64,000 nt of DNA, taken from NCBI RefSeq assembly GCF_002798405.1, contig NZ_PGGV01000016.1, forward strand, positions 310,001-374,000, written 5' to 3'. Position numbers and translations under genes: made by a program. The notes under the pieces were generated by a model that saw nothing but the letters and a program-made list of their open reading frames with translations, had not been told where the DNA came from and did not search any database. The stretch comes from Glycomyces xiaoerkulensis. GTDB lineage: Bacteria; Actinomycetota; Actinomycetes; Mycobacteriales; Micromonosporaceae. Positions 4,571 to 63,652 of this stretch are shown here, piece by piece. The first letter of the stretch is position 1. The number at the start of each line of letters is the position of its first letter.

Positions 4571-4604
4571 GCAGCGCTTTCAGAGAGTCGGTAGCCTCAG
4601 CGAA

Positions 4605-6021: not shown

Positions 6022-6315
6022 TTAGCCCTGGTAGCTTCTCCACGGCCCGTCGAGAGTGGTCGAGTCGTGGAATTCCGGGCCGGCGGGATCGCTGGTCCAG
6101 GTGGCGACTGCGGCGTACTCTCGGTTGTGGATCAGGTAGGAGCCGTGGTGCAGCTCCCATTCGGATCCAAGGAACCGAACCTTTTGCGGGCCGGAAGTGT
6201 AGCCGTTACCGCCCGGCCACAACGCAAGGGCATATTCAGGGTTGGAACTGGATTGATGGCAGCGCGGCCAATCGTCCGGTCCCCGCCTGGAACCATCCGG
6301 AAGGAACGCGATCAT
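6022..6315 (-). CDS. Possible small protein of unknown function, divergent from ArsR gene
   Basis: An open frame of 97 codons from an ATG at 6315 to a TAA at 6022. The product is rich in W, Y and H, with stretches such as LGSEWELHHGSYLIHN and PAGPEFHDSTTLDGPW. That looks more like a folded protein than antisense noise, and third codon positions are mostly G/C, though less than in neighbouring genes. Against it: it shares its start region with the ArsR gene on the other strand, and no ribosome site is visible. It may be a real small protein or the tail of a degraded gene. Confidence 0.3.
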   Translation of the reverse strand: MIAFLPDGSRRGPDDWPRCHQSSSNPEYALALWPGGNGYTSGPQKVRFLGSEWELHHGSYLIHNREYAAVATWTSDPAGPEFHDSTTLDGPWRSYQG

Positions 6316-6670
6316 GGTGCGAGTCACCGTTGAGGCCGAGACGCCCGTTTCGCCGGTCAGCGGAGAGACGCTCTCTTCTGCCGACGCCGAGCGCATCGCA
6401 GGTGTCCTAAAAGCACTTGCCGACCCGAACCGTCTCCAGCTCATCAGCCGTATCCAGGCCTCTCCCGATCAGGAAGCCTGCGTTGCGGACTTGACCGAGC
6501 CGCTGGGCCTGTCCCAGCCGACCGTCAGCCACCACCTGCGCATCCTGGTCGAGGCCGGGGTCGTCGAGCGCGACAAGCGCGGGGTGTGGGCCTACTTCCG
6601 CCTCGTCCCCGAAACGATGCGGATCGTCGCCGACCTGCTGACGCCGCCCAAGCGGCGCCGTCGACGCTGA
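6314..6670 (+). CDS. ArsR family transcriptional regulator
   Basis: A 118-aa winged-helix regulator of the ArsR/SmtB type. ALADPNRLQLISRIQ leads into the DNA-binding helix pair LGLSQPTVSHHLRIL and the beta-wing around GVVERDKRGVWAYF. Start is the ATG at 6314, with GGAAGGA nine bases upstream. The alpha-3 metal motif of classical ArsR/CmtR (ELCVCDL) is here EACVADL with one cysteine, so arsenic or cadmium sensing cannot be assumed. It is followed by an exported protein gene on the same strand; its target is unknown. Confidence 0.85.
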   Translation: MVRVTVEAETPVSPVSGETLSSADAERIAGVLKALADPNRLQLISRIQASPDQEACVADLTEPLGLSQPTVSHHLRILVEAGVVERDKRGVWAYFRLVPETMRIVADLLTPPKRRRRR

Positions 6671-6757
6671 ACCGCCCCCGGCCGGTCGCCCCGGCCGGGG
6701 CGGATAACCGAATAGGCAGACCTCGACTCAGGTTGTGTCCGGCCATACACTGGTCGC

Positions 6758-7618
6758 ATGACCGGCAGACACCGCAGACCGCACCGACTCTCCAAGGAGG
6801 GTCGGCGCCTTCTGGGCGGCGTCGCCTTGCTGGCCGTGTTCGGGCCGGTCACGGCCTATACGCTGAATGCCGCCATCGCGCACGTGCAATCGTGCGGGAC
6901 CGAGACCACATTGACCGTGGCCGCCGCGCCCGAGCTGGCGCCGGTCCTGGAGGAGTTCGTCGACGCCGGAGGCGGCGCGCCCGAGAAGGGCTCCGACGTG
7001 TGCGCCGAGATCGACGTGACCGCCGCCGAAGGCACCGAGATCGACGAAGTCGACGCCGACGTGTGGATTCCCGAGACCGGGCTGTGGCTCCACATCCCCG
7101 AGCGGGATCTGGACGAGCAGTGGGACGTGCTCAACACCTCGACCGCCTCGAGCGCGGTCGGTCTCGCGCTGCCCGAGGGGGAGTCGACCGACCAGGTCAC
7201 CCCCGACGGCGTCGAGGTGTCGCTGGAGAACCCCCGGGAGGACCCGGCGAGCCTGAAGTGGATGGTGCTGTTCGGCGTCACCGAGGACTCCGCCTCCGGG
7301 GCCTCCGACGACGCCTACGAGGTCATGTCGGCCGCACAGGTGCGGCGCCTGAACGAGCAGGAGGGCGCCGGGCTCCAGGAGCCGATCGGACCGGCCCAGG
7401 TGGGCCAGTTCGAATACCCGATGCTGATCGATGCCGACCTCGACGACGACCGCCGCGAGGCCGCGAACAACCTGCTGCGCTCCTACGGGCTGCCCGAGTA
7501 CCCGGAAATACTGAGCGCCTCCGGCTTCGGCCCGTCGGTCCCCCAGCCCCCGGAGCAGTCGGCCTCGGCGGTCGAGGCCGTCCTCCAGGCCTGGGACGCC
7601 TACTCGTCGGGCGGCTGA
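6758..7618 (+). CDS. Exported protein with substrate-binding-protein-like fold
   Basis: A 286-aa protein with a basic N-terminus and one hydrophobic segment (LLGGVALLAVFGPVTAY), then an acidic extracellular region. The start of the mature part (ETTLTVAAAPELAPVLEEF) and the motif DADVWIPETGLW resemble the opening of type 2 periplasmic binding domains found in actinobacterial substrate-binding/VWA-type membrane proteins. A lipobox is not evident; C48 (SCGTET) could pair with C61. The ligand and partners are unknown. The stop lies 7 bp from the convergent neighbouring gene. Confidence 0.6.
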   Translation: MTGRHRRPHRLSKEGRRLLGGVALLAVFGPVTAYTLNAAIAHVQSCGTETTLTVAAAPELAPVLEEFVDAGGGAPEKGSDVCAEIDVTAAEGTEIDEVDADVWIPETGLWLHIPERDLDEQWDVLNTSTASSAVGLALPEGESTDQVTPDGVEVSLENPREDPASLKWMVLFGVTEDSASGASDDAYEVMSAAQVRRLNEQEGAGLQEPIGPAQVGQFEYPMLIDADLDDDRREAANNLLRSYGLPEYPEILSASGFGPSVPQPPEQSASAVEAVLQAWDAYSSGG

Positions 7619-49043: not shown

Positions 49044-49120
49044 CGGGTTGTGGCGCAGCTTGGTAGCGCACCTCGTTCGGGACGAGGGGGTCGCAGGTTC
49101 AAATCCTGTCAACCCGACCA
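49044..49120 (+). tRNA. tRNA-Pro (CGG), integration target
   Basis: A complete 77-nt tRNA with encoded CCA. Acceptor CGGGTTG pairs with CAACCCG, discriminator A. The anticodon stem-loop is CCTCG-TTCGGGA-CGAGG, anticodon CGG for codon CCG, and the T-arm loop is TTCAAAT. Its 3' half, from the anticodon loop onward, is repeated at 63151, marking it as the attB site of the mobile element. The gene stays intact because the element carries the copied 3' part. Confidence 0.97.
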
Positions 49121-49121
49121 A
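49077..49121. repeat. attL core (45-bp direct repeat)
   Basis: The 3' half of tRNA-Pro from position 33 in the anticodon loop through CCA plus one base. It is identical to 63151-63195. Crossover in or next to the anticodon loop is typical for tyrosine integrases using tRNA genes. Confidence 0.93.
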
Positions 49122-49412
49122 AGAATCCCAGCTCAGGCTCTGTCTTCGACGGGGCCTGACTGGTTTCCGAACCGGCCTGGCTAGCGCCTGGTTAGTGAAA
49201 CACAACGTCAGTTCGTGATAGTAGCTGTAAGCCCGAGGGTTGGCGAAGTGACCTTGGACACTCCGTTGGTCTGTGCTGATTGCTTCGTCAACTCCCGTGG
49301 GCAACGCGCGGTGTGGCCGCTTAGCGCGCGTCTCTCCTGCTGACGTTCCTTCGGTGACACCGGGCCAGCCAGTCGATGCAACCAGTTTCTTAGTTTGGTT
49401 GTGGTGCTTGGG
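49122..49412. other. Left end of the element, no gene seen
   Basis: About 290 bases between attL and the endonuclease-like gene without a supportable gene. It contains TGGTTAGTGAA (49189-49199), nearly matching TGGTTAGCGAA at 63010-63020 near attR; these may be integrase arm-type sites. Confidence 0.4.
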
Positions 49413-50378
49413 ATGTCATACCCGTCGGATAGAACCATTGGCATGCCCTACAACCAGTTCTACAACCTGACGGTCGGTGAAGCGATCTATGAGAAGGTCC
49501 AGGTGATCGCAGATTGCGCGATCGGGAAAGGCCGGTCTGAAGCTCTCGGGCGCGGTGCGTTCATCGAACTTCCTGTGGTGGTTCAGTTGCTCCAAGCAAT
49601 GAGCATGGGTGATGCTTCGATTGATGAAGTGCGTGAGGTCTTGGAAGATGTTGCCCAGGATGTTGCCCCAGAGCCTGGGCTGATGGGCGGCTGTTGTTCC
49701 ATGTGCGCCTACTCCTACGACAGTTACCTGAAGGTTTGGGATAATTTCGATAGGCATTTCGCGCAACAAGAGCTGCTTGAGGAGGCGCGGACCAACTTCG
49801 ACATCGTGGTCACCAAGAATCGAATTCACGCTGCTGACTGCGGCTCGGCCAGAATTCATCTTCCAAGCCCTCCAATGCGGTTGGAGGACTTCACGCATGG
49901 TGGGTATGTAGGAGACCGTCCGGGGCCGTATGCTCTCTTGGCATATGAGGAGTTGGATGAATGGCTGGCGCGAAATACTGCGAAGAGCGGACGACGGAAA
50001 TTCTGCAAGCGCTGCGTTGCACGGATTCCTGGTGCCATTGAGAAGTTCGCAAAGGCGGACCCGATCTGCTGGGAATGGCCCGTTAGATCGCTAGAGAACT
50101 TGGACCCGGAATCGTATGAAGGGTTCAAGATCATGGAGGAATGGCAGAATGGCAGGTGCGCCGCATGCGGTATCTATGCTGATCTGGTTCTCGACCATGA
50201 TCACGAAACTGGCCTCGTTCGAGGTTGGCTCTGCCGAAGCTGCAATGTGCGTGAAGGCAGTCGGCATGACACGAGCGCGATGATATCGAATTACCGAAAG
50301 AAGAACCCGGCAACGATTCTTGGTATACGAATTCCTTTCTATGTCGTAAAGGATCATCAACTTCGAGAAGGAAAGTGA
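49413..50378 (+). CDS. Endonuclease VII-like (HNH superfamily) protein
   Basis: A 321-aa protein (from ATG 49413; an ATG at 49443 is also possible). The C-terminal domain has the recombination endonuclease VII pattern: CAACGIYADLVLDHDHETG followed by VRGWLCRSCN, i.e. two zinc cysteine pairs around an HDH nuclease core. The first 220 residues are unrecognised and contain further cysteines (GCCSMCAYSYD; KFCKRCVARIPG). Codon use is much less GC-rich than in the chromosome, indicating recent transfer. T4 endonuclease VII resolves branched DNA; here it could cut DNA in defence or in transfer. First gene inside attL. Confidence 0.7.
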   Translation: MSYPSDRTIGMPYNQFYNLTVGEAIYEKVQVIADCAIGKGRSEALGRGAFIELPVVVQLLQAMSMGDASIDEVREVLEDVAQDVAPEPGLMGGCCSMCAYSYDSYLKVWDNFDRHFAQQELLEEARTNFDIVVTKNRIHAADCGSARIHLPSPPMRLEDFTHGGYVGDRPGPYALLAYEELDEWLARNTAKSGRRKFCKRCVARIPGAIEKFAKADPICWEWPVRSLENLDPESYEGFKIMEEWQNGRCAACGIYADLVLDHDHETGLVRGWLCRSCNVREGSRHDTSAMISNYRKKNPATILGIRIPFYVVKDHQLREGK

Positions 50379-50458: not shown

Positions 50459-53400
50459 TCAGATGAGGCGAGGCCCGGCCGGTCCTTGGATAGTCTGATA
50501 GTTCGGTGTTTCCAGGAGGGTGGGATCGAAACCGCCATATGCTAGTTCGTCGCGCTGAGGTTGGATTGGTTGCTGCTGGCGCGCTTCTACTTCGGGGTAG
50601 GGGATTTGATCGGGTGTGCGTCGGCCGGTGGTGATGTCGTGGGCTTGGTGGGCGGCGGCGGAGGCGATGTCGAGGATGCGGCGCTCTTCTGGGGTCTTCG
50701 GCGTCCAGCCCCATGGGTTGTGTTGCTCGGCATCGACATGGTCGGTTGCGGCGCAGATTAGGGCGACGCGCTCGTGCCACATCTCCTTGGCGGTGGGGTC
50801 GGTGGGTTCTTCGCCGGGGTAGTCCATCCAGTGGGGCCGTTCGGTGATGGCTTGCTCGGCGAGGGTGCGGGCGCGTTCGCCGATGGCGTCGGCGAGGGCG
50901 CTGGTGTATCCGGCGAGCCTGTCGGGTGTTGGGTCGTCCCCGACTGGTGCGACGGTGATCCATGGGGCGGAGTTGAGCACCGCATGTTCGGCCGGGTCGG
51001 GGTCTCGTCTGTGTGCGGCGCGGAGTTCTTCGGTGTAGGCGAGTTTGTCGGCGAGGTCGGCGATGGTTCCGGCGCGGGCGAGTTTGTCGCGCAGGGTCTC
51101 GGTGGCGGAGCGTTCGGCGTCGTCGCGGTCGAGGACGCGCACGAACGCGGCTTGCGCTTCGGACTGTTCTTGGTCCGGAGTGAGCGGCTGGTCCTCGGGG
51201 ACCTCCACCGCAAAGTAGAGGTGGTTGGCCTCTTTGCCTCGGGTGACGGGGACGTAGGCGCCTTCTCTGCCGCACAGCTCGGGGTCGATGAGGGAATGGG
51301 TGGTGTCGACGGTGCGGCCTTGAGAGCGATGCCCGGTGACGGCATAAGCGAGTTCGACCGACTCGGCGACGTACGCGGCGGGCAGGACCAGGCGCCCGCC
51401 GTGTTCGGCGTGTCTTACGGCCAGGGCGTCGTCACCGTGGCGAGTCTCGACGGTCCAGGTGTCGCCGTTCTTGACAAACTGCCCGCCCTGGCAGGCGAGG
51501 TCGCGTCTCGGGGTGCGGGTGACGATGAGGTCGCCGGTCCCGGCCTGGTTCCCGTCGTGGAGTGTGACCCCGTCCGCGGCGACCTTCCCGGCTGCGACGA
51601 GGTCTTCGCGGGCTCGTTCGGAGAGCGCGGTGACCTCTTGGTTGGTTCCGGCGATCGTGAGCGAGTCCCTGCCGCCTTGGGTGTCGGCCAGCCACGCCTG
51701 GTAGACCCGCTCCCGCAAGTCGTCGTTGTCTCCGGCGTGGAGGCGGCCCGCGTTGGCGTAGAAGTCGACGGCAGCGTTGTCGCCTTCGCGGAGCTGGAGC
51801 GAGGCGGCGGCTTCGGTGGGGTCGTTGAAGCGGTGGACTTCGTCGAGGACGACGGTCGGAGTCTCTGAAGCGAGGAGGCGCAGTGCCCCGCCGGATTCGA
51901 CGGCGGAGAACTGGTAGTGGTCGCCGAGCAGCCGCAGCGCGGTGCCGTGGTTGTCGGTGATCTGCCGGAGCCGGTCGAGGTTCGGCGTCCCGGTCATGCC
52001 GGCCTCGTCGACCAGGACCACGTCGCCGGGCCGGAGACGGAACTGCTCCACCTCGGCCGGGACCGGCTGACCTTGGTAGAGGTCGGTTGCCGACGTGCCT
52101 TTGGTGTGTTTGTGGACGAACTTGTGGACGTTCTCGGACGGGAGGCCGAGTTCGGCGGCGAGGACTGCGGCCGCGGTGCCGGAGGACGCGAGCGGCACCA
52201 AGCGGCGCCCGTCAGCGTTGAGGACGTGGGCGAGGGCGCGCATGGCGGTGGTCTTCCCGGTTCCGGCCGGGCCGATCCCGGCGACGGTCTGGCGGGTGTC
52301 GGTCGCGAACGACTCGACGAGTTTCCGTTGCCCCGCGTCAAGCTGCTGGCCTGCTTGTCGCTCGAAGTCCGTGAGCGTGGCGGCGGCCCGTTCGGGCGCG
52401 GTGGCGGTGATGACGCCGGGGATGGTGGCGGCTTGGACGAGGTCGGTTTCGGCGGTGAGGATCTGTTCGGAGGTGTAGCGGGCCGCTCCGTGCGCGGTGA
52501 ACACTGAGACGCCGTCCTTGCGGCGCAGCGTGGCCGGTTTGGGCACGACTGCCGGAGCCTCCAGGCTGATGCTCGCGCTCAACGCGGTGTCGGTGATCTG
52601 TTCGACCAGCGATTTCCGCTGGGCGTGGTCGGTGAGGGTGACACCGTGCTCAGCCAGGGTGCGGTGGGCGGCGGCCTCGATGTTCCACCGGTTCCAGGTC
52701 GCCCGGTACTCCGACACCCGCGCCGTGACTGCTTCGGCCAGCGCGAGGAGGTCGAGTCCGGACACCGGCGTCGAGACCGAGCACGGCTCTTGCCCGCGAC
52801 GCGCTGGAATCCCTCCAGGGCGTCGGCGCCGAACCGGTCGGTGAACTGCCCCCGCCATGCCGCGTTCAACTCTCCCAGCGACTTTGCGGTTCCTTTGACG
52901 TTGCGGGTGTCGAGGTTCGCCGTCCGCGCAAGCTGCCGCTCGGTGGCCTTGTCGGGGCTGCGGCCGTGGGCGTTGCGGTAGTCGGCGACCAGTTCGTAGT
53001 AGCGCTCGACGATGCCCTCACGGCGGCTTGAAAAGGACTTGATCCACTCGTCCTTGACCCCGGCGATCTCCCACACCGGTTCCTTGTCCGCCCGCGTGTT
53101 GGTGCGCATCCGCCACTCGACCCCGAGGCGTCTGGTGAGTTCGGCGCGGAACGCCGAGTCGTAGACAGCCCCGGCGGTCACGGTGATGAAGTGCAGCGGG
53201 CGCCCGTCAATGGTCCGCCACTTCCCGTCCGTCACCGCTTGGACCCGGTTGGCGACCGCGACATGGGTGTGGAGGTGCGGCTCGCCGTTGCGGTTGTCGA
53301 AATGATCGAACGCGACCGCCACGAGCCCGTTCGTGTCTACCTGCGCTGGGCCGCCGGCCCCGACCCGCGTGAACGCCGCGTGCTCCTCCAGATACTTCAC

Positions 53401-54027
53401 CGCCTCGGCCACGGCGGCGTCGTGCGCCCACTTCACCTGCGCCCGGACCTGCTGCGAATCGTGCAGCGCCCACAGCATCGACGCCGACTTCACCGGCGCG
53501 AACACCAGGTCGTACCCGGCCACGGCCTGCTTGCTCTTCTGGGCCGCGACCTTCCGGGCCTCGCGCAGCTCGCCCGGGGTCGGCCCCCGGCCCTGCTCGA
53601 TCAAGATCTTGTCGACCTGCCGGTGGAACCGCTCGGCGTAGTCGGCCGTGACCTGCTGATATTTCGGGAACGGCCGCCCGAGTCGTGCGGCGCGCACGGC
53701 CTCCTCGGCGATCCGCTCCGCATCACCGGGCTTGCGCACCCGGTGGGCGTTGGCGGCTTTGTAGGCGTCCATGACCCGCTGCGCGTCCGGGCGCATCCCC
53801 TCGCCGAACAGGAACCGCATCTGCTCCTCGGCGACCTTGTCGCCGGGCTTCAGGTCGAGGCCGTCGAGCCCGGACCCGAGCCAGACACCGGGCGGGTTCC
53901 CGCGCGCGTTGTAGTAGGCGACCGCGTCCGCCTCGGTCGCGAACACCCTCGGGGTGTCCCCGGCCGCGACCGACTCGGTCAGATACAGGTAGCCCGAACC
54001 GGCGTAGATCTTCTTCAACGAAAGCAG
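50459..54027 (-). pseudogene. MobF-type relaxase/helicase (TraA/TrwC-like), frameshifted
   Basis: Two overlapping frames together make one protein of about 1190 residues. The N-terminal frame (to about 52790) is a TrwC relaxase: LSLKKIYAGSGYLYLTESVA at its start, the FDHFDNRNGEPHLHTHVAVA His-triad motif, and TWGI-like body sequence. The C-terminal frame (about 52790 down to 50459) is a RecD-like helicase with Walker A GIGPAGTGKTTAMRAL, VVLVDEAGM and GDHYQFSAV. Frames switch near 52785-52800 by a one-base loss after DALEGFQRVAG. The expected start codon before LSLKK is CTG (54027); only weak GTG/TTG alternatives exist. It would nick oriT and unwind DNA for conjugative transfer. Confidence 0.85.
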
Positions 54028-54513
54028 CGCATACCACCAAACCAGGAGAGGGAGATAGTCGACAGGAAATGACACCAACGACGCCGGGGAAGCGGCCGGA
54101 TCGGCAACACTACATCCCGCACTCGCAGAGTGCAAGATGTGTCTTGCTCTTTTCTCCCTTGGTTATGAAGGTGGTATTGTTGCAGGTAGATTGTCTAATC
54201 TACCTGTCATTTCTTGCTGATCCGTATTGAATCGTACTGGAGCGTACTGACTTATCACTGCGGGTACCAGGTCGTCTTGAGATTGCATTCATTGCAGGAG
54301 GATTCTCGGCTTTGTAGTGACGGTTCCGCTGATTCCTCTCGGTATTCGCCGGGCGATGCGTGATGTTTTCCTGCCCGTTCGGTGCCGACTTCGAGGTCCT
54401 GAAACCGGGAAACGCCGGGGTGCGAGATCATTTCGCGCCCCGGCGCTTGGCCCTCCTCCACCTTGGCGGGCCGGAGGCGGGGCGGCCCCACCGTCCGCCC
54501 CGCTGGATCGTGT
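54028..54513. promoter_or_regulatory. Candidate oriT region beside the relaxase gene
   Basis: No gene is supported between the relaxase start and tgmC. The stretch 54130-54270 is AT-rich and structured: GCAAGA-TGTG-TCTTGC (54132-54147), a 10-bp inverted repeat CAGGTAGATT-GTCT-AATCTACCTG (54183-54206), and short iterated CGTACTG/CGTATTG units (about 54222-54250). Inverted repeats next to a relaxase gene are the usual form of an origin of transfer. The nic site cannot be placed. Confidence 0.45.
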
Positions 54514-55677
54514 TCAGCCGTTCCTGAAGCGTTGCCACTTGACGCCGATGGCGGGGGAGCCGAGCGCGTCGTAGCCGTCATGCCCGGAAACAACCTCGTA
54601 CCGGAAGCCGCTGAGATCGTCGACACTGCTGCGCTGCCATTCGGTGAGGATCTGCTCGACGGCTTGCCAGATGCGGCGCTTGCCGCCTTCCCGAACCCGG
54701 TGCCCGTGCTCGCCGTCGGTGAACGCGGCCCATGAGTCTGAGGCGTGATCGATGATCACGGGCCATCCCCCCTCGAATTCGGGATAGAAGCTGGCGTCAC
54801 CGAGCACCCAACCGGCCAGAAACCCGACCGGGAATCTGAAGAGGTCGGCGGGATTCCATTCCGTAGCCCGCTCTGTGGCCTCTTCGATCTGTTCGAGGTC
54901 GGGGAACCGGACCGGGCCGGACGGCGGGGTGCGGGTCTCCATGAAGCTCGCGCCGGGCACGATGAACTCGCCTTCACCGCGACGCTCCCCGACGCTTACT
55001 TTGACGATCGCCATGCCGAAGGGCTTGGTGAAGACGGTGGTGATGATGATGCCACCAGGTTTGACCATGCTGAGCCAAGCGTCGGGAATGGTCGGGAACG
55101 AGCAGGTGGCTATCAGACGATCGACCCGTGGGCCGCCGAGCACCGCGCCGTCACCGACCACGAGGCGCGGCGCAAGGCCCGCCTTCCGCAACTGTTCGCT
55201 GGCCTCAGCTGACACCTTCGGATCAACCTCGATGGAGGTCACGTTCGCTTCGCCGAGCCGTTCGGAGAGCAGTGCAGCGTTGTAGCCGGTACCGGTGCCG
55301 ATCTCGACCACGGCCATGCCGTCGTCGAGTTCAAGTGCTTCGAGCATGTCGGCCATGAGCCCCGGCTCAGTGGAGGACGACGTCGCCAGGCCCTCGACGG
55401 CGCCTTGCACGTCGAGCGGAGTGGTCCCCCCGTCGAGCTGGGTGACGCAGGTCCGATCCGTGTAGACCTGGCCGAGCCAACTCGCCTCGTCGGTGGTCTC
55501 GACCGTGACCGGAATCCACCTCCCGGCCGAATCGAGGTCGAAGAAGTAGGGCACGAACACATGACGCGGCACCGACGCGAAGGCCGACTCCCACTCGGGC
55601 GAGGAGATGCGGCCCTCGGCGACGAGGTCGGCGACCATGCCGCGCCGGTAGGGATCGGCGGCCCTATCGAATTCCAT
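54514..55677 (-). CDS. tgmC: Graspetide-associated PIMT-like methyltransferase
   Basis: A 387-aa protein. Residues 1-220 follow protein-L-isoaspartate O-methyltransferase: VPRHVFVP, the SSSTEPGLMADMLEAL segment and SAM motif I VVEIGTGTGYNAAL (124-131 core). About 160 extra C-terminal residues (FPDLEQIEEATERATEWNP onward) mark the version found in ATP-grasp RiPP clusters rather than the repair enzyme. In the graspetide fuscimiditide such an enzyme methylates an aspartate of the cross-linked peptide, which cyclises to aspartimide. Overlaps tgmB by 14 bp, last gene of the operon. Confidence 0.88.
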   Translation of the reverse strand: MEFDRAADPYRRGMVADLVAEGRISSPEWESAFASVPRHVFVPYFFDLDSAGRWIPVTVETTDEASWLGQVYTDRTCVTQLDGGTTPLDVQGAVEGLATSSSTEPGLMADMLEALELDDGMAVVEIGTGTGYNAALLSERLGEANVTSIEVDPKVSAEASEQLRKAGLAPRLVVGDGAVLGGPRVDRLIATCSFPTIPDAWLSMVKPGGIIITTVFTKPFGMAIVKVSVGERRGEGEFIVPGASFMETRTPPSGPVRFPDLEQIEEATERATEWNPADLFRFPVGFLAGWVLGDASFYPEFEGGWPVIIDHASDSWAAFTDGEHGHRVREGGKRRIWQAVEQILTEWQRSSVDDLSGFRYEVVSGHDGYDALGSPAIGVKWQRFRNG

Positions 55678-56605
55678 GCATCCCCCGTGCTAGCAGTTCG
55701 GCGAAGCTCTTCGCCATCGGCAGTCCGGTCTCGTCCTCCAGCCACGCCCACTGCCCGGCCGGGTTGCATTCGAGGAAGACCCACGTCCCGGCAGCCGTGA
55801 GCGCGAAGTCGAAACACCCGTAGTGCAGCGAGAAGCCGTCAAGATAGCGCCGCACGGCTTTACTGACATCCTCTGGTACCTCCACCGGCTCGTAGCGGAG
55901 CTGGTCGTAGTCCGATCGCCAGTCGAGCACATCGCTGTCGATGCGGACGGCGAACAGCTCCCGGCCGATCGCAGTCAGACGGATGTCGGCGATCTTGTCG
56001 ACCTGGGCTTGGAACTGGTGAGCCGTCGCCGCGACCTCGCCGGTGATCTCTTCCGGCGCTACGGTACCGGCCCAGATCGCCAGCGGCTCCCCGTCCCGAT
56101 CGATCTCCGGCGGCCTGAGCGACTTGTACACCACCGGGCCGTGGCGCTGCGCGAACGACTGCGCACGAGCGGGCCGGTTCGTGATCGTGGTCGCCGGCAC
56201 TGCGAACCCGAGCCGACCCGCGTGCTGGAGTTGGAGCGGCTTGTTCTCGGCGCGGCGGGTGAAGTCCGGGTAGTTGACGTGCAGGCACGGCAGCGCCTTC
56301 AACGCCGCGACGAACCCGGCGCGAGCCTCCCGTTCCGCGAACTCCGCGACGGCCGGATCGTCGTACTGGCAACTCACCGGCGTTGGCCTGCGCCAGTAGA
56401 CCGCACGGACGTCATTGAAGAACACCGTCCGGGTGGGCGTCGCCAGACTCCCGAGCCCGGTCTCCGTGATCTCGAAGTCGACCCGTCCGGGGAAGTCCAC
56501 CAGGTCGAGCCTCGCGACGCGCATCCCCGTCGAGTGCAGGTGTTCGATCACCGAGTCGGCGGTGGTGTCGCCGAGCTCGGTGACGACCATGACGGTGCTA
56601 GTCAT
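55664..56605 (-). CDS. tgmB: ATP-grasp ribosomal peptide maturase
   Basis: A 313-aa ATP-grasp ligase of the graspetide (microviridin/SAV_5884-like) type. RAVYWRRPTP, NYPDFTRRAENKPLQLQHAG, ATP-binding K161 in GPVVYKSLRP, D266 in GCFDFALT and the metal-binding FLECNPAGQWAWLE (E279, N281) are diagnostic. It would phosphorylate acidic side chains of TgmA and join them to Ser/Thr hydroxyls (esters) or Lys (amides). Its ATG overlaps the tgmA stop, and tgmC overlaps its end, so precursor and enzymes are coupled. Confidence 0.93.
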   Translation of the reverse strand: MTSTVMVVTELGDTTADSVIEHLHSTGMRVARLDLVDFPGRVDFEITETGLGSLATPTRTVFFNDVRAVYWRRPTPVSCQYDDPAVAEFAEREARAGFVAALKALPCLHVNYPDFTRRAENKPLQLQHAGRLGFAVPATTITNRPARAQSFAQRHGPVVYKSLRPPEIDRDGEPLAIWAGTVAPEEITGEVAATAHQFQAQVDKIADIRLTAIGRELFAVRIDSDVLDWRSDYDQLRYEPVEVPEDVSKAVRRYLDGFSLHYGCFDFALTAAGTWVFLECNPAGQWAWLEDETGLPMAKSFAELLARGMHGIR

Positions 56606-56849
56606 ACGAGGACTTCGTGTCGGTGTAGCGGCTGGTGTCGCCGGGTTTGCTGCCGTCGGTGGAGTTCTGCGTGGTGGTCGCCTGGTGGTTCACCGACTGG
56701 CGATGCTTGGCGTTGTGGATGACCTCGCCTGCGGCACCCTGCCACACGGCCATCTGGGTTGCCGAGTCCACCCGAACGGGCTCGCCCTCAAGCATCGAAG
56801 GCGTGCCGTACGGTGCGAGGCGGGAGAGGCCCCACGGCTGATGTTCCAT
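56598..56849 (-). CDS. tgmA: Graspetide precursor peptide
   Basis: An 83-aa RiPP precursor with a strong AGGAGG site. The leader has the conserved maturase-recognition motif PWGLSRLAPYG (5-15) and VRVDSATQMAVW. From about residue 57 the sequence becomes a core rich in donors and acceptors: TTTQNSTDGSKPG (58-70) then DTSRYTDTKSSYD (71-83), with seven Ser/Thr after K68, two Lys and four Asp. D65-G66, D71-T72 and D77-T78 are sites prone to aspartimide formation. The final product should be a small side-chain-cross-linked peptide. No export gene is adjacent. Confidence 0.9.
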   Translation of the reverse strand: MEHQPWGLSRLAPYGTPSMLEGEPVRVDSATQMAVWQGAAGEVIHNAKHRQSVNHQATTTQNSTDGSKPGDTSRYTDTKSSYD

Positions 56850-56851
56850 TG

Positions 56852-57058
56852 CTACCTCCTGTCGTCGGAACGGGGATCACTGTTGTTTGCGCGGAAGACC
56901 TTCCGCAGTCTTCCTCCCGGCTTGTGCTGGACGTACCAGCGCGCCTGCTCGAACTCGGTGGCGTCTGGGGGCGGTGCGCCGAGCTCCTCTTTTGTGGCGG
57001 CCTCGGCGGCGGATCCGCGATCGGCTACCTCGTCGTCAGGCTTGTGTTCGGACGGCAT
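56852..57058 (-). CDS. Small acidic protein of unknown function in the graspetide operon
   Basis: A 68-aa hydrophilic protein, from ATG 57058. The first half is acidic (HKPDDEVADRGSAAEAATKE); the second (EFEQARWYVQHKPGGRLRKV) is basic and may fold as a helix with a Trp-Tyr patch. Its start lies inside the end of the preceding gene (23-bp overlap), and its stop is 3 bp before the tgmA ATG. The position immediately before the precursor suggests a pathway role such as leader-peptide binding or immunity, which is only inference. Confidence 0.6.
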   Translation of the reverse strand: MPSEHKPDDEVADRGSAAEAATKEELGAPPPDATEFEQARWYVQHKPGGRLRKVFRANNSDPRSDDRR

Positions 57059-57347
57059 CGCGCTGCTCCTTCCGCCTAGCACGCTGAACCCGGTGGATCG
57101 TGTGGGAGAGCAAGACTCGGGCGAACCCATTGCCGGGATCGATCCAGTCCGGCCATTCGGCCTCGTAGTCGCCGAAGTCGTACCTGCGCTGCCGCAAGCC
57201 AGTCACCCGAAGGAGTTTGACCGAGTCGCCGCACCAGGTCTCGACGGTGTCGGGGTCGGTTCGGTTGTCGCCGTAAACGATGAACTGAAGGAACTCGCCG
57301 GGGCCGATCACACCGAGGCGGTGTTCGGGCTTGTGGACATCGTTCAT
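57036..57347 (-). CDS. Unknown 103-aa protein in the graspetide operon (second gene)
   Basis: A 103-aa soluble protein with no recognised family. It is Trp/Asp-rich in the middle (RYDFGDYEAEWPDWIDPGNG), starts with HRLGVIGPGEFLQFIVYGDN, and ends in a basic helix (HTIHRVQRARRKEQRDAVR). Its ATG overlaps the preceding stop (ATGA), a sign of translational coupling. It has natural amino-acid composition and G/C-rich third positions, so it is a real gene. Confidence 0.65.
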   Translation of the reverse strand: MNDVHKPEHRLGVIGPGEFLQFIVYGDNRTDPDTVETWCGDSVKLLRVTGLRQRRYDFGDYEAEWPDWIDPGNGFARVLLSHTIHRVQRARRKEQRDAVRTQA

Positions 57348-57655
57348 TGCGGGGCCACCAACTCTCTCGCGATTCGGCTTGCTTCACGACGAAGAAAGAC
57401 CATCAATGTCTCGAACACGAAGCGGCGCTGCCACTGTCGGCTGTACGACCGCCACGGCGAGGACCAGGACACGGCATAGGGGGCTGCACTGGGACCGACG
57501 CCCCTCAGTACGAGCGCGAGTACGGGCCCGCAGTAGACGTGGAGTGTCGCCTCACTGGACTTGACGACCAGGAAATCGCTTCGCCCGTCGCTGAACGAAC
57601 CGAGTTCGCCATCGGGAGCCGATCCGGCCACTCTAGAGGCTGACATGCTGCTCAT
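57344..57655 (-). CDS. Unknown 103-aa protein, first gene of the graspetide operon
   Basis: A 103-aa protein with GGAAGGAG eight bases before the ATG at 57655. The centre is hydrophobic (TLHVYCGPVLALVLRGVG) and could be a beta sheet or a short membrane segment. The C-terminal third is Arg/Trp-rich (SSPWRSYSRQWQRRFVFETL). No family recognised. First gene after the divergent control region and coupled to the next by ATGA. Confidence 0.6.
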   Translation of the reverse strand: MSSMSASRVAGSAPDGELGSFSDGRSDFLVVKSSEATLHVYCGPVLALVLRGVGPSAAPYAVSWSSPWRSYSRQWQRRFVFETLMVFLRREASRIARELVAPQ

Positions 57656-57753: not shown

Positions 57754-59021
57754 ATGGAGTTCGGGTGGCGGTTGAAGGAGTTGCGCGCGGCCCGCAAGGT
57801 GTCACTCCGTGCTCTAGCTCGGCGAACGTCCTTCGACCACACCTATCTGTGGCGGATTGAGAACGGCGCGCATCCGGGTACCGTCGAGGTCGCGCAGCGG
57901 TGTGACGAGGCCCTTGGAAGTGCGACCGAACTGTCCGATCTCGCGAGAGCGGGCGAGGACGCAGGGGCATTCGGCCCGAACCTGCTGCGATCGATACGGC
58001 AGGTAGAGGGTTCAGACGTGGAACGAAGAAGCTTCCTGATGGTGGCGTCGTCGTCGGTTGCCGTGAGTGCGACCGGCCTCATCGGCGGTCCGAGAGCCAT
58101 CGGTGCCGGTGACGTCGCGGCAGTGCGGGACATGACCGCGCTGTTCTCCCGCGCCGACCAGCGGCACGGCGGCGGCCACGCACGGAACGCCTTGACGCAG
58201 TACCTGATGACCGACGTCCTCGACTCCCTCACCGGGCGGTTCCGCAGCGACACGGACCGGCGTCAACTCTTCTCCGCCGCCAGCGAAGCCGCATACCTGG
58301 TCGGATGGATGTCCTTCGACGACAACCAGCACGAGGAAGCTCGCCGAGCCTTCGCTCTGGCCGTCGAACTGGCGAAAGAAGCCGATGACGCGGCACTGGT
58401 CGGGCACGTGCTGCGCGCAATGGCACATCAAGCCAACGACATCGGCTATGTCTCTCAAGCTCTGCGGTACTCCTCCGCCTCTGTCGAGGGCGATTCCTAC
58501 CGTGAAGCCGGACCGAAGGAGCGCGCGCTGATGGGCGTCGTACACGCCCGCGCCCTCGTATCCGCCAATCAGCACCAAGCCGCCTCGCGCGCCCTGCTCC
58601 GAGCCGAGGACGACCTCGCTTCGGCGAACGCGGGCGATACAGAACCCGACCGGGTCTTCTTCTTCGGCGAGGCGGCGCTCGCGCACGAGACCGCCTCCGC
58701 GCTGCGGGACATGGGTGACTACGACGGTGCGATCCGTGAGTTCGAACGGAGCGTCGAGGCCCGAAGGCGCACACCTTCACGCGAACCCACGCCGTCACAC
58801 TCGGATATCTCGCCGAGGTCCAGGCCCGAGACGGTGACCTTGAAGCGGCCAGCGATACCTGGTCGCAAGCCCTCGACGCCATGAACGGCGTCCGGTCCGG
58901 GCGCACGAGGAAGGTCATCGGCAACATGATCGAAGTGCTCGACACGTACCAAGGGGCGGGCGGCGACCAAGTCGCGGAACTCCGCCAGCGCGCCAACGAC
59001 CTACTCACAGAGTCGCAGTGA
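57754..59021 (+). pseudogene. XRE-type HTH regulator with TPR-like sensor, frameshifted
   Basis: Residues 1-60 are an XRE HTH (LKELRAARKVSLRALARRTS, HTYLWRIENG). The rest is a helical TPR-like region (AYLVGWMSFDDNQHEEARRA; ALRYSSASVEGDSYREAGPK) typical of streptomycete regulators beside secondary-metabolite and RiPP genes. The frame breaks at 58764: after EFERSVEAR the shifted frame continues naturally as HTFTRTHAVTLGYLAEVQAR and ends ANDLLTESQ at the TGA 59019-59021. One base appears lost. As sequenced, translation would give 376 aa with a scrambled tail of about 40 residues; the HTH stays intact, so some DNA binding may persist. Confidence 0.75.
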
Positions 59022-59038
59022 CGAATTCGAGGAGCAGC

Positions 59039-59521
59039 ATGACAGAGGAATTCACCGTCCGGCCGGTCGCACACGTCATCGGCGGCCGGGAGAAGCCCAC
59101 CGACGACTACTGGGGCGGAACGAAGTCGATCATCCGCATCGACGACCCGAGGTTCGACGAGGAGTCCACTCGGGGACTGGACGAGTTCTCCCACCTCGAA
59201 GTCGTGTTCTACTTCCACCTGACGGACCCTGCCGACCTGCACTTCGGCGCCCGAGCCGCCCGCGACAACCCGGCATGGCCGAAAGTCGGCGTGTTCGGCC
59301 ACCGCAACATGCGACGGGTCAACTGGCTCGGCGTGAGCCGCTGCAAGCTCCTCAAAGTCGACGGCCTCGACCTCCACGTCGAAGACCTCGACGCCGTGGA
59401 CGGCACGCCGGTCCTCGACATCAAGCCCTGGTTCGCCGAGATGGGGCCGCGCGGAGAAACCGCTCAACCCTCCTGGGTCGGCGAAATGCTGGTCGACTAC
59501 TTCGCCCCGAAGCAGGACTAG
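59039..59521 (+). CDS. TrmO/TsaA-like (UPF0066) SAM-dependent methyltransferase
   Basis: A 160-aa beta-barrel protein of the TrmO family. VRPVAHVIGGREKPTDDYWG, LDEFSHLEVVFYFHL, GVFGHRNMRRVNWLGVSRCK and DGTPVLDIKPW are the hallmark stretches. E. coli TrmO adds a methyl group to t6A37 of tRNA-Thr; family members can also have other roles. I take the ATG at 59039 (GAGGAG before it) over a GTG at 59018. It directly follows the XRE regulator, with 17 bp between them. Its presence on the mobile element is unexplained. Confidence 0.82.
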   Translation: MTEEFTVRPVAHVIGGREKPTDDYWGGTKSIIRIDDPRFDEESTRGLDEFSHLEVVFYFHLTDPADLHFGARAARDNPAWPKVGVFGHRNMRRVNWLGVSRCKLLKVDGLDLHVEDLDAVDGTPVLDIKPWFAEMGPRGETAQPSWVGEMLVDYFAPKQD

Positions 59522-59534
59522 ACAGCAGGCCCCG

Positions 59535-60569
59535 ATGACCGAATACGTGCTCAATGCCGAACTGGCGCTCCCAGAGGGTCATCCGGACCTCAATGCCCTT
59601 GAGAACGCGGGCGCGACCGCGCTGGTCGACCAGACGCTCGACCGGGTCGGGGGAGCCGAAACCGAAGACGGCGAGTCGATCGACCTCGTCCGGCACTGGG
59701 TCGGCGGCCATCCCCAGGGCGCGTTGCTGCTCCTGGTCATCGACGCGCCGACGCTGGACGACGCGGAAGGCGGAGCCGAAGCGATCCTCGACGGGGTCCT
59801 TGAAGAAATCGAACCGCTTGAAGACTGGCGGGTGACCAAGTGCGAGGTCAGCCTGGGCGAGGAAGAGTTCAAGCAGAAGCTCGCGAATCCCAGAACAACC
59901 CCGGGACAGATTGAGCCTCGCTCCCCATCGCCAAGCGACGACCGAGACATGGCAGCAGAGCACTCCGAGTGGGCGGAGCGACTCCGGGGAGAAGCGAAGC
60001 AACTGCGCGCCTTCAGCCTCGCGACGTTTGAAGCTGACCGTGAGACCGCTGAGACCGCAGCCGGGGCTCTGATCTGGTGCACGAGTCTCATCCTCGAAGA
60101 CCTGTTCCAGGCCCACGAAGAACTGAGCCAGTCCGGCGGAACAGCCGCTGATACCGATGACACCGTCCTGTGGCAGCTCCCGGAGCGCTTCCGAGAGCAC
60201 TACGGCGTGCTGTTCGTCAGGCACATGATCACCGCCGCAGTCACAGTCTCGAACCGGCTGGTTGAAGACGTGTGGCAGATGCCCTGTTGCGTCGGCGAGG
60301 CGTTGGCACTCCACATGATCATCGACACGGCAGCTGCCATCTTGCAGGACAACGCCGGTATCGAGGTTGAGGAAATCTATGAGGAGTTCCGAGAACGAGC
60401 GTTCCTCAATCAGGACTTCTACTGGCTCTACGCTGACGACCCGGGCGGCGCAGAAGACGAGGCATCCCTGCGGAGCTGGCTCAGCACTCACGGACTCGAC
60501 TTCGAGAAATGGTTCGAGCCACTGCCAGAGAGTACGGCATGCGTCCACCCCTTCTTGCTGGATCACTGA
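59535..60569 (+). CDS. Unknown 344-aa protein of the mobile element
   Basis: A soluble, acidic protein in two parts: residues 1-105 (YVLNAELALPEGHPDLNALE; VTKCEVSLGEEEFKQKL) and, after a Pro/Ser linker near 125, an all-helical C-terminal region (LIWCTSLILEDLFQAHEELS; MPCCVGEALALHMIIDTAAA). No family recognised. It follows the TrmO-like gene by 13 bp and is probably co-transcribed. No catalytic motif, signal peptide or membrane segment is seen. Confidence 0.65.
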   Translation: MTEYVLNAELALPEGHPDLNALENAGATALVDQTLDRVGGAETEDGESIDLVRHWVGGHPQGALLLLVIDAPTLDDAEGGAEAILDGVLEEIEPLEDWRVTKCEVSLGEEEFKQKLANPRTTPGQIEPRSPSPSDDRDMAAEHSEWAERLRGEAKQLRAFSLATFEADRETAETAAGALIWCTSLILEDLFQAHEELSQSGGTAADTDDTVLWQLPERFREHYGVLFVRHMITAAVTVSNRLVEDVWQMPCCVGEALALHMIIDTAAAILQDNAGIEVEEIYEEFRERAFLNQDFYWLYADDPGGAEDEASLRSWLSTHGLDFEKWFEPLPESTACVHPFLLDH

Positions 60570-60707: not shown

Positions 60708-61259
60708 ATGGAGTTGGGCAGCGACATGCTCCAGGTCGGTGTCGAGCTGCGTTTCAGGACGGTTCCCGCCTCGGAGATCATTCAATCCATCGGTCGGCTG
60801 AACCGGTTCGATTCTCGCGAACCGTCTCTGGTCGTCGAGGTACCTACCGGATCTGGCAAGACTGAAGCCCTCCTGCAAATACTCGATGAGTACAGTCGGA
60901 CCTTCGGTCGGAGCAGCCGATCCGGAATCGATAAGCGGGAACGCCTCCGGAACGCCGCAGACGAGCTGCGCAAGGCAAGAAGCGCTCATGCTAGACGCGC
61001 GGCTGCGCGAGCGTTCTTGGCGGCCCTGGCTGACTCGATCCGCGAGCTCTTGCAATTCCTCGGGCGGCTCTTGATCCTGCTCCTTTCCCAGCTAGAGGGG
61101 CGGCTGAGTCGAGCTGACGAGGGACTTTCCTGGAGGATCAGTCCTCGCAATGCCTTCCCACGGATCACACCTAGGGGGCCGAACACCGCCTTCCCCCTGT
61201 TCCTGAATCGGGGTGGACACCAACGCAGTGCGCTGGGGAGCGCCGTACTTGCTGCCTGA
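60708..61259 (+). CDS. Small protein with helicase-type P-loop
   Basis: A 183-aa frame with GGGGAGGTGAG before the ATG. Residues about 41-56 read LVVEVPTGSGKTEALL, a helicase/AAA motif I, preceded by VPASEIIQSIGRLNRFD. No Walker B or further motifs follow; the next part is Arg/Ala-rich helix (KRERLRNAADELRKARSAHA) and a leucine-rich stretch (LLQFLGRLLILLLSQLEGRL). The last 50 residues look unstructured. It may be a small ATPase or the remnant of a larger one. Third positions are less GC-rich than in the chromosome. Confidence 0.45.
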   Translation: MELGSDMLQVGVELRFRTVPASEIIQSIGRLNRFDSREPSLVVEVPTGSGKTEALLQILDEYSRTFGRSSRSGIDKRERLRNAADELRKARSAHARRAAARAFLAALADSIRELLQFLGRLLILLLSQLEGRLSRADEGLSWRISPRNAFPRITPRGPNTAFPLFLNRGGHQRSALGSAVLAA

Positions 61260-61535: not shown

Positions 61536-62990
61536 TCAGGTAACGAGCTTCGCCAGCTTTGTCTGGATCTCGGTCAACTGCGCGAGAAGCTGCTGCGCGT
61601 TCTCCTCGCCATCAGAAACCAAGCTCGTCGCTTGGGCCGCTTCACCAGAGATTTGCTTAGGGATGTTTCGGAAGCGGACAGCATCGAAGGCATCGAGGGC
61701 GGTCTCGTCGGCGTTGTCGAGGGTGTGGAGGTAGCGCTCCGTCGTGGTGATGCTGGCGTGGCCCAGGCGGGTCTTGACCACCATGAGGTCCGCGCCGCCG
61801 TTGAGGAGCCATGAAGCGTGCGCGTGGCGGAGCATGTGCATCCGGATGTCCACGCCTAGGTCGGCCTCTTCGAGCGCGGGCTTGATGACCTTCTCACGGA
61901 ACCAGCGGCGCGGTATGTGGCCGTCGGTCTCCCAGGTCCGAGGGCTGCGGGGGTCGTCCTTGCCTTCGGCTCTGCGGCTGGCGCGGTAGTCGGCCATCGC
62001 CCGGCGGCAGTGCTGGCAGCGGCACTTTCCGGCGGTGTAGGCCGAGGTCGTGCCGTGACGGTACTTGCGACCCTTCGAGTTCGGCTCCGTGAATCCGAGA
62101 TCGGTCTGTGCGAGTTCTGATTGCTGCTGCGCACGGGAGTCCTCCCCGTCGAAGGAGAAGATCAAGTCCTCGCTGCCGATCCCATTCTCGGAGATGTAGC
62201 CGTCGAGCTTGTCGCAGAGGCGCTGGCCGATCTTGAACGCGCGCCACTCGCCGTTTTTCGGGTAGTCCTTGACGTGGAAGCGCCCGCCGGTTGGGTGGAA
62301 CTTCTTGTTGACCTGGACTACCGCTCGGGCCACGGTGAGCCTCCGGGTGGACCGGTTGATGTCCTTGGGGCGCAGTTCGGTCAGCTCGCCCCAGCGCATG
62401 CCAGTCTCGATCGCGACTTCGACCAGGAGCTTGGACATCTCGTCGGGGAGCGCGTCGTGGAACTGCTGGTACTGCTCGGGGGTGATGATCGGCAACGGCT
62501 TCGCCGCGACCTTCTCCATCTTCACCGATGCGCAGGGGTTCACGGCGATGACCTCGTCGCCGACCGCACAGTTCATGATGGTCGACAGGAGGATCTTGCA
62601 GTACTTCCGGCTGTGCGCGCTCATGCCGGCGTCCTTGAGGCCCTTGATCCAGGCGCGGACGTCGTCGGCGTAGATGTCGAGCATCCGCTTGTGCTCGAAG
62701 AACCCCATCAGATGGGCGTAGAGGGCGTAGGTGTAGTTCTCCCGCGTGGTGACCTCGACGGCGAGGTTGGGGAGCCAGGACTTCTCGACGTAGGTCCTGA
62801 AGGTCTGGCGGCCTCGGACGAGGTGGCTCCCGCGGGATTCGGCCACCTTCGTCTCGGCGGCCTTCCACTCCTGATCGGCGCGCTTCTTGGTGGGGAAGGT
62901 CCCGGCGGAGCGGTGGACTCCTGCGGGATCCTTGTACATCGCGGTATAGCGGTAGCCGTCCCGGCGCTTGCGCTTGATCGAGTAACCCAT
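61536..62990 (-). CDS. int: Tyrosine site-specific integrase
   Basis: A 484-aa phage-type recombinase. Residues 1-50 form an arm-binding domain (YSIKRKRRDGYRYTAMYKD), about 63-160 the SAM-like core-binding domain, and 170-440 the catalytic domain with R199 (GMRWGELTELR), H385 and R388 (HMLRHAHASW), H411 (RLGHASITTTERY) and nucleophile Y420. Residues about 300-345 are an insertion with a Cys cluster C323, C325, C328 (GKCRCQHCRR), typical of actinobacterial integrases. It is transcribed inward from the right end, 160 bp from attR, as expected for the enzyme that inserted this element into tRNA-Pro. Confidence 0.95.
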   Translation of the reverse strand: MGYSIKRKRRDGYRYTAMYKDPAGVHRSAGTFPTKKRADQEWKAAETKVAESRGSHLVRGRQTFRTYVEKSWLPNLAVEVTTRENYTYALYAHLMGFFEHKRMLDIYADDVRAWIKGLKDAGMSAHSRKYCKILLSTIMNCAVGDEVIAVNPCASVKMEKVAAKPLPIITPEQYQQFHDALPDEMSKLLVEVAIETGMRWGELTELRPKDINRSTRRLTVARAVVQVNKKFHPTGGRFHVKDYPKNGEWRAFKIGQRLCDKLDGYISENGIGSEDLIFSFDGEDSRAQQQSELAQTDLGFTEPNSKGRKYRHGTTSAYTAGKCRCQHCRRAMADYRASRRAEGKDDPRSPRTWETDGHIPRRWFREKVIKPALEEADLGVDIRMHMLRHAHASWLLNGGADLMVVKTRLGHASITTTERYLHTLDNADETALDAFDAVRFRNIPKQISGEAAQATSLVSDGEENAQQLLAQLTEIQTKLAKLVT

Positions 62991-63150
62991 GGGGTGGTTC
63001 TCCTCGTACTGGTTAGCGAATGGTTAGCAGGCGGGTTGGTACTAACCAGTACGCGGCAGCACGTTTCAGCACTAGAAAATGGCACATGACCTGGACCTTA
63101 ATCCAGATTTGAGCCTGCATCTAGTTCCCTGTACATATGACAGGGCGCGG
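62991..63150. promoter_or_regulatory. Integrase upstream region with inverted repeats
   Basis: A 12-bp perfect inverted repeat, CGTACTGGTTAG (63005-63016) and CTAACCAGTACG (63042-63053), frames a second TGGTTAGC (63021-63028). A further repeat CCCTGT-ACATATG-ACAGGG (63127-63145) lies 5 bp before attR. These are probably integrase arm sites, a recombination directionality site and/or the int promoter operator. Confidence 0.5.
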
Positions 63151-63195
63151 TCGGGACGAGGGGGTCGCAGGTTCAAATCCTGTCAACCCGACCAA
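63151..63195. repeat. attR core (45-bp direct repeat)
   Basis: Identical to 49077-49121. Only the 3' half of the tRNA is present here; the preceding bases do not form the 5' half, so it is not a second tRNA gene. Confidence 0.93.
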
Positions 63196-63217
63196 TGTGA
63201 TGTCTCAGGACATCGGA

Positions 63218-63249
63218 AACGGTCCGAACCTGCGAAGGTTCGGACCGTT
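63218..63249 (+). terminator. Original tRNA-Pro terminator, displaced by the element
   Basis: A perfect 13-bp stem (AACGGTCCGAACC and complement) with a 6-nt loop, followed by CGTGGTTTT. It lies 23 bp after attR; before integration it would have stood the same distance behind tRNA-Pro. Confidence 0.75.
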
Positions 63250-63264
63250 CGTGGTTTTCAGCGG

Positions 63265-63652
63265 GTGGGTCCTTTGGGTGTGCCGGTGAGCTGGTAGTCG
63301 CGGTCCGAGCTCGGCGATGGTGTCCGTGATCTCGGCAGAGTCGCGGGAGCCGCGCAGGTGATGCGGCGGGATCCAGGATCGGGAATCGCGTCGGCTGGCC
63401 TCCAGATGGTCCATGATGAACACCGGTCCCGGCAGGTGCGCGATCGGTTCGCCGTCGCGAGGGAATACGACGGTCGTCGCGGCGCTCGTTGGTGAACCAG
63501 GTGCCGTAGGCGACCTGGGCCGGCCCCGCGTCCTCATGCTCGCCGAAAACGAGCAGTGCGTCCAGGTCCTCACGTGCCATGAGTGCTCGGGCGAGGTTCC
63601 AACGCCGTTCGCGTTCGGCCGCCGAGAGAGTCGGCCCGGCGGCATCGTTCAT
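63265..63652 (-). pseudogene. Remnant of an M24 family peptidase gene (N-terminal domain)
   Basis: From ATG 63652 the protein reads as the creatinase-like N-terminal domain of an M24 (Xaa-Pro dipeptidase type) enzyme: ERERRWNLARALMAREDLDA, then GPAQVAYGTWFTNER. A single extra base near 63480 shifts the frame; the neighbouring frame continues the fold with TTVVFPRDGEPIAHLPGPVF and DHLEASRRDSRSW. Similarity fades by about 63270, and the catalytic domain is absent: the sequence ends at the tRNA terminator. A clear pseudogene, probably older than the element's arrival. Confidence 0.6.

Follow-up and report, generated by a model that had tools for sequence, protein, structure and literature searches.

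The window analyzed here is a 64,000-nucleotide stretch of the Glycomyces xiaoerkulensis genome, and the system in question is a set of six genes on its minus strand, orf1, orf2, orf3, tgmA, tgmB, and tgmC (window positions 54514 to 57655), with the gene content of a graspetide operon. The whole set lies within a 14.1-kb element bounded by two 48-bp attachment (att) copies, the first of which is the 3' half of a tRNA-Pro(CGG) gene. A first-pass annotation had described three small uncharacterized proteins followed by a precursor, a maturase, and a methyltransferase, placed between the att sites of a tRNA-Pro element. All six genes were found in this arrangement, and the placement was borne out by the repeats, which are identical at 47 of 48 bases, and by the presence of a tyrosine integrase gene (Table 1).

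Gene content of the operon

Profile searches with NCBIfam and Pfam assigned TgmA to TIGR04186 (42.5 bits; cut-off, 25) and PF14408 (26.0 bits; cut-off, 25), and TgmB to TIGR04187 (359.3 bits, above the cut-off of 350). The top family for TgmC was by far TIGR04188 (E = 1.2e-98), with a score of 330.8 bits that did not reach the cut-off of 380; TgmC also matched PF01135 at 75.2 bits, above the cut-off of 20.3. The search with the three graspetide families, suggested in the first-pass annotation, was therefore positive for the precursor and ligase, whereas for the methyltransferase it named the best family at a score below the threshold. The products of orf1, orf2, and orf3 matched nothing in either library at E values up to 1.

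In six of six operon genes, the GC content at the third codon position (GC3, 0.71 to 0.86) exceeded that at the first and second positions (GC1 and GC2), which is consistent with coding sequence in all six frames. The genes tgmA and tgmB overlap by 8 bases, tgmB and tgmC by 14 bases, and orf1 and orf2 by 4 bases, and Shine-Dalgarno-like sites were observed upstream of orf1, orf3, and tgmA. The orf3 frame is open to an ATG at 57130; the start at 57058 is likelier because AAGGAG stands before it. A scan for sigma-70 promoters, which is ill-suited to actinomycete promoters, returned 0 sites, compared with 0.4 expected by chance.

By sequence, the closest solved structures to TgmB were ATP-grasp peptide ligases, namely, 9bou (E = 4e-47), CdnC 7mgv, 5ig8, 5ig9, and AMdnB 7m4s, and an ECNxxGQ stretch is common to TgmB and 9bou. 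TgmC matched structures of protein isoaspartate methyltransferases (PIMTs), including 2yxe and 1dl5, within residues 96 to 240. Its PCMT match stops at residue 215 of 387, so that some 170 amino acids lie beyond the catalytic match. A long C-terminal extension has been described in PIMTs linked to ribosomally synthesized and posttranslationally modified peptides (RiPPs) (PMC10787088), and TgmC resembles these enzymes in carrying an extension of more than 100 amino acids.

The tRNA-Pro site in other genomes of the genus

We compared the tRNA-Pro regions of 20 same-genus genomes (6.7 to 19.6 kb each) and of G019 (L084), 21 in all; the left flank was present, at least in part, in 61 of 61 genomes searched. 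None of tgmA, tgmB, tgmC, orf1 to orf3, the NsdA-like gene, or the TrmO-like gene was detected at any of the 21 loci (20 at E ≤ 1e-5 and G019 at 1e-3). Thus, the same operon at the same place without the element, which the first-pass annotation had named as evidence against its proposal, was not encountered in these genomes. The same element backbone and att core also occur at this site in one genome, G006 (L062), where the att copies lie 8.6 kb apart. The G006 endonuclease is 69% identical to that of the window, the TrwC relic 85% over 74 residues, the integrase 81%, and the other backbone proteins 77/65% and 41%. In contrast to the window element, that of G006 holds no graspetide operon, NsdA-like gene, or TrmO-like gene at E ≤ 1e-5.

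Other elements occupy the same site in G004, G009, G012, and G016, with 16.0, 6.6, 11.6, and 12.4 kb, respectively, between the att copies and an integrase-profile hit in each. Judged by eye from translations, one of these four (G004, L066; G012, L055; G016, L072; G009, L058) looks like a restriction set of DNA methylase, Vsr, and helicase, and others resemble actinomycete integrative and conjugative elements (AICEs) with NUDIX or HD genes. An AICE is defined by Rep and an FtsK-type transfer protein.

For recognition of empty sites, the 108 bases to the right of attR were compared with the bases following each att copy and with 100 shuffles. Two sites, in G015 (97/108) and G021 (77/107), were clean empty sites in which the right flank directly follows the tRNA gene. 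In G016, right-flank sequence follows the second att copy of a different element (88/106). The G019 value of 58/100 was only slightly above the shuffle maximum of 54, and this site was not counted as empty. A local alignment spanning both flanks once joined proved too lax for this purpose, as the occupied locus L072 also gave 326/423. The comparison of relatives proposed at the outset therefore yielded two clean empty sites and one differently loaded copy. Together, the other elements, the empty sites, and the cargo-free element of G006 indicate that tRNA-Pro(CGG) serves as a hot spot for integration in the genus and that the operon is element-borne here.

Table 1. Features of the integrated element and its graspetide operon in the window
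Feature	Position	Strand	Remarks
tRNA-Pro(CGG)	49044..49120	+	Integration target
attL	49074..49121	+	3' half of tRNA-Pro(CGG)
Endonuclease VII-type protein (PF02945)	49395..50378	+	Element backbone; 69% identical copy in G006 element
TrwC/MobF helicase half	50459..52858	-	Frame differs from relaxase half
TrwC relaxase domain half (PF08751)	52579..54135	-	Frame broken near 3' end
tgmC	54514..55677	-	PIMT-like O-methyltransferase; long C-terminal extension
tgmB	55664..56605	-	Graspetide ATP-grasp ligase
tgmA	56598..56849	-	Precursor peptide, 83 aa; core Asp65-Gly66 plus Asp71, Asp77, Asp83
orf3	56852..57058	-	68 aa from Shine-Dalgarno-like start
orf2	57036..57347	-	103 aa; no family match; predicted strands then long helix (low confidence)
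orf1	57344..57655	-	103 aa; no family match; predicted strands then long helix (low confidence)
NsdA-family HTH/TPR regulator	57754..58884	+	Divergent from operon; C-terminal part appears to extend to 59021 in a different frame (by eye)
TrmO/TsaA-like protein	59018..59521	+	Often beside NsdA-like genes elsewhere
Backbone protein	59535..60569	+	No assigned function; copy in G006 element
Backbone protein	60708..61259	+	Weak sub-threshold ResIII match; G006 element copy 41%
Tyrosine integrase	61536..62990	-	Adjoins attR
attR	63148..63195	+	47/48 (98%) identical to attL

State of the element

The first-pass annotation had spoken of an element with a relaxase. A TrwC relaxase/helicase is indeed present, but it is split over two frames; in an Amycolatopsis plasmid (L207), a single annotated mobF coding sequence (2696-7543) spans the matches to both pieces. 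The breaks in the relaxase and NsdA-like frames reflect either decay or draft error. No conjugation ATPase, Rep, or FtsK-type transfer gene was recognized among the element open reading frames (ORFs) scanned with Pfam. Because the relaxase frame is broken and no conjugation ATPase was found, the current copy of the element may no longer move between cells, and from its sequence its present mobility is doubtful. The element resembles tRNA-integrated integrative mobilizable or conjugative elements of actinomycetes in its tyrosine integrase beside an att site in the tRNA 3' end and in its MobF relaxase gene. It differs from them in that no Rep or FtsK-type ATPase was recognized in the scanned ORFs and the relaxase is frame-broken; in place of the intact relaxase of an integrative mobilizable element, it has two frames, possibly through draft error.

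Precursor peptide and predicted product

The tail of TgmA ends in TTTQNSTDGSKPGDTSRYTDTKSSYD, and the sequence pattern of the core comprises S52, T58-60, S63, T64, D65-G66, D71, D77, and D83. The acidic residues after Asp65-Gly66 thus stand at +6, +12, and +18, with an Asp every six residues. The leader carries QPWG at residues 4 to 7, rather than RPFG itself, and relatives show RPWG, APWG, PPWG, and TPWG. RPFG is the tetrapeptide recognized by the fuscimiditide ligase (PMC13003496). Across 68 loci surveyed (67 distinct tails), the +6/+12/+18 pattern was found in 0 of 55 tails bearing DG in the last 45 residues, a set that includes the tail from the genome's second cluster. Because candidates were picked by composition, the DG falls in the leader for many, and 24 of the TgmB rows split off as a deep branch of their own, this comparison of core spacing is a description rather than a test. 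By hand count, the probability that four evenly spaced Asp would arise by chance within 38 residues is about 0.003, a value that is uncorrected and was computed after the pattern had been seen. TgmA predicts a ring spacing that is absent from the sample examined.

By analogy, the product should have as many as three Thr/Ser-to-Asp esters surrounding a loop that contains Asp65, with an aspartimide or isoaspartate then forming at Asp65; fuscimiditide and amycolimiditide (PMC12291112 and PMC13001092) are the models for this prediction. Fuscimiditide, which had been put forward as the known example, is one of several, as four graspimiditides have been expressed so far (PMC13001092), and over a thousand clusters of group 13 graspetides are in print. 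Like the group 13 graspetides fuscimiditide, amycolimiditide, albusimiditide, and SsfA, the window operon unites precursor, ATP-grasp ligase, and PIMT-like genes in an actinomycete host and has a DG within a core that is first Thr-rich and then Asp-spaced; its QPWG would be a leader motif of the PWG/PFG type. It differs from them in the +6/+12/+18 acidic spacing, the three extra orphan genes, and the att-bracketed element.

Companion proteins

Searches with orf1 in 394 genomes of the class and with orf2 in 296 gave three nonself matches in total (E = 4.5e-5, 8.2e-4, and 5.4e-4; 30 to 43% identity over 60 to 83 amino acids). All three were judged to be chance matches, each lying within a far longer open frame of 493 to 1,024 amino acids. 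Neither orf1 nor orf2 matched plasmids at E ≤ 0.01, and orf2 had no match in viral contigs. The searches with orf3 covered the NCBIfam and Pfam libraries and the fetched loci, including the same-genus tRNA-Pro loci. Compared with each other, orf1 and orf2 gave an E value of 0.24 by BLASTP and, as a single pair, 0.011 by phmmer without filters. Their structure models, made with no alignment, had mean pLDDT values of 57.5 and 56.6 and show strands leading into a long helix at the C terminus. A paralogous origin of orf1 and orf2 is a lead suggested by these sequences and models, the latter being too weak for a fold search.

Relatives of TgmB and a second cluster in the genome

Within the order, TgmB matches at E ≤ 1e-60 occurred in 7 of 397 genomes, including its own, and the six others were 40 to 44% identical. 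The nearest relatives found, at 45 to 48% identity, came from Actinomadura, Streptomonospora, and Streptomyces (7 of 9 loci near full length). Up to 66 plasmid records contained a TgmB-like match at E ≤ 1e-10, the best being from Streptomyces (48.5%), and 57 of the 66 were typed as nonmobilizable in PLSDB; 66 is an upper bound, since one record of 11.85 Mb is surely a chromosome. Among 50,697 phage records, two distant matches were observed (34%, E = 8e-32; 24%, E = 4e-25). A tree built from 75 TgmB rows placed the window TgmB on a long lone branch (1.18) outside any supported group. These sequence comparisons fit an import of TgmB from outside the host family, which a long branch cannot prove.

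The same genome holds a second graspetide cluster (G000:C26:141172-142098; L002, also L074) with a candidate precursor, a TgmB of 334 bits, and a PIMT-like gene. Its TgmB is 36% identical to that of the window and groups with a same-family genome (support, 97/98); no tRNA or integrase-profile hit was found in the 17.4 kb fetched around it. The two clusters share TgmB, the PIMT-like gene, and a similar core in which DG comes first; the Asp residues after the DG lie at +6, +10, and +14 in the second cluster, compared with +6, +12, and +18 in the window TgmA.

Other TgmB loci and the NsdA-TrmO pair

The first-pass annotation had further suggested that graspetide clusters spread as discrete cargo. 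Of 85 nonself TIGR04187 matches, we surveyed the best 60, taking about 9.5 kb on each side, together with 18 control stretches drawn from those genomes; 6 of the 60 stretches were shorter than 19 kb, and 33 of 60 contained a TgmC-like gene. An integrase-like ORF lay within 9.5 kb in 3 of 60 TgmB loci and 0 of 18 controls, in a survey blind to serine integrases and to elements extending past ±9.5 kb; the integrase profile also detected the more distant integrases of L055, L058, and L072. TrwC fragments were present at 1 of 60 loci. A duplicated tRNA 3' end was found at none of the 60 loci, and any tRNA at only 6 (4 of 18 controls); one control, L206, had a duplicated end arising from two neighboring tRNA-Asp genes. 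With 0 of 60 duplicated tRNA ends and 3 of 60 integrase-like ORFs, most such clusters have no visible vehicle nearby, which limits how far the idea of mobile cargo can be stretched. The broad claim of spread consequently rests on one case, beyond which we found no support for it.

Two loci hint in the direction opposite to the survey as a whole. In L136, from another family, fragments of NsdA (64%) and TrmO (67.5%) lie some 1.8 kb upstream of tgmB. L143, which is the sister of L136 in the tree (support, 100/99), carries fragments of TrwC roughly 5.6 kb past its own tgmB. By eye, the two fragments in L136 (5000-9500) lie between a transposase-like gene and the graspetide cluster, and they are possibly element scars.

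The order of an NsdA-family regulator and then a TrmO-like gene (window 57754-59521) recurs in several actinomycete families. At E ≤ 1e-40, the TrmO-like gene was present in 22 of 374 genomes, its own being the only one from the host's order. An NsdA-like gene stood beside TrmO at 10 of 19 nonself TrmO loci (3.3 to 3.5 kb each), and a tgm gene at 0 of 19. A role of the pair as dedicated graspetide partners was therefore rejected as the principal reading; NsdA-TrmO looks like a common gene pair taken up as separate cargo.

Interpretation of the locus

We consider it probable (about 0.86) that a complete group 13 graspetide (graspimiditide) operon is cargo of a 14.1-kb element integrated site specifically in tRNA-Pro(CGG). 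The gene content, the family membership of TgmA and TgmB, the att repeats, the two empty sites, and the differently loaded site are direct observations; from them and from characterized relatives, we infer the chemistry, cotranscription, and transfer history of the operon as follows. TgmB would bind the TgmA leader, with QPWG replacing the RPFG-type motif, and with ATP would join Thr/Ser side chains of region 52-64 to Asp71, Asp77, and Asp83 as esters, building a nested stem-loop. TgmC would then methylate the loop Asp65, which would cyclize onto Gly66 to give an aspartimide, or isoaspartate if this is then hydrolyzed, and the leader would be cut off by a protease encoded outside the operon. 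The products of orf1 to orf3 may be cotranscribed helpers acting as partner or in export, immunity, or regulation. The integrase presumably placed the element, operon included, in the tRNA gene, and the MobF relaxase, whose frame is now broken, may formerly have allowed mobilization.

Several observations weigh against this reading. No transport, protease, or immunity genes were recognized, TgmA matched no solved structure at E values up to 10, and TgmC scored below the curated TIGR04188 cut-off. The window TgmB joins no supported group that would name a donor lineage. At the remaining sites with a single att copy, the right flank has diverged too far for the sites to be called empty, and the frames of the TrwC relaxase and NsdA-like genes are broken. 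In addition, because G006 keeps a TrwC relic, loss of cargo in that genome is as possible as cargo never having been gained. Our confidence does not hinge on the number of clean empty sites, since G006 and G016 each provide an independent comparison.

The att repeats might instead mark an older island, with the operon an ordinary chromosomal set brought in through homologous recombination or by another element and lying inside by accident. Two of the element's genes have broken frames, which suggests that it is old and decaying, and at 57 of the 60 other TgmB loci no integrase-like ORF lies within 9.5 kb. However, the operon lies entirely between the repeats, is missing from all 21 tRNA-Pro loci compared in the genus and from the otherwise shared backbone of G006, and differs in lineage from the genome's other cluster, which makes this account quite unlikely. 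Inertness of the operon, with the element decaying and the pathway unexpressed, has a small chance of being correct: neighboring genes are broken and the sigma-70 scan found no site, but that scan is unsuited to these promoters, and all six frames are open and show GC3 bias, three of them with a Shine-Dalgarno-like site in front, which speaks against inertness.

It is very improbable that TgmA and TgmB form a graspetide pathway beside a methyltransferase that is an ordinary isoaspartate repair enzyme, giving a product without aspartimide. Although the subthreshold TIGR04188 score and the PIMTs as closest solved structures would accord with such an enzyme, TIGR04188 is the top family, the extension is of the RiPP-PIMT type, and tgmC overlaps tgmB. 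A bolder extension of the cargo reading, which we regard as unlikely, would see in the locus a new graspimiditide architecture, a stem whose rungs (S52/T58/T64 to D71/D77/D83) recur at six-residue intervals, a ligase needing at least one of orf1 to orf3 as a partner, and a recurring travelling set of graspetide operon, NsdA-TrmO, and MobF relaxase, of which L136 and L143 hold fragments.

Read as element-borne cargo, the operon is a new example of an established kind of pathway in an informative, mobile-type setting, and its new points are a precursor core with an Asp every six residues and the orphan companion proteins. Earlier work, arguing from trees and from similarity between loci, proposed that graspetide loci are exchanged horizontally (PMC8939145). 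Our literature search, which left most subscription journals outside its reach and so is no proof of absence, found no work joining graspetides with an integrative and conjugative element; for graspetides and mobile genetic elements, it found only a general treatment of RiPPs and phages, and for graspetides and horizontal gene transfer, two papers, PMC8939145 among them. In this genome, the entire pathway is bracketed by defined att sites, and both empty sites and a sister element lacking the cargo are available for comparison, so that the vehicle can be named and tested.

Two further observations concern neighboring DNA. Just beyond attR (window 63173-63652), there is by eye an apparent start of an M24-peptidase gene with a broken frame, in an ORF without a Pfam match. 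Elsewhere in the genome (G000:C23:56196-57596; L085), a same-family integrase, 49% identical, lies near another tRNA-like att copy and probably belongs to a second element.

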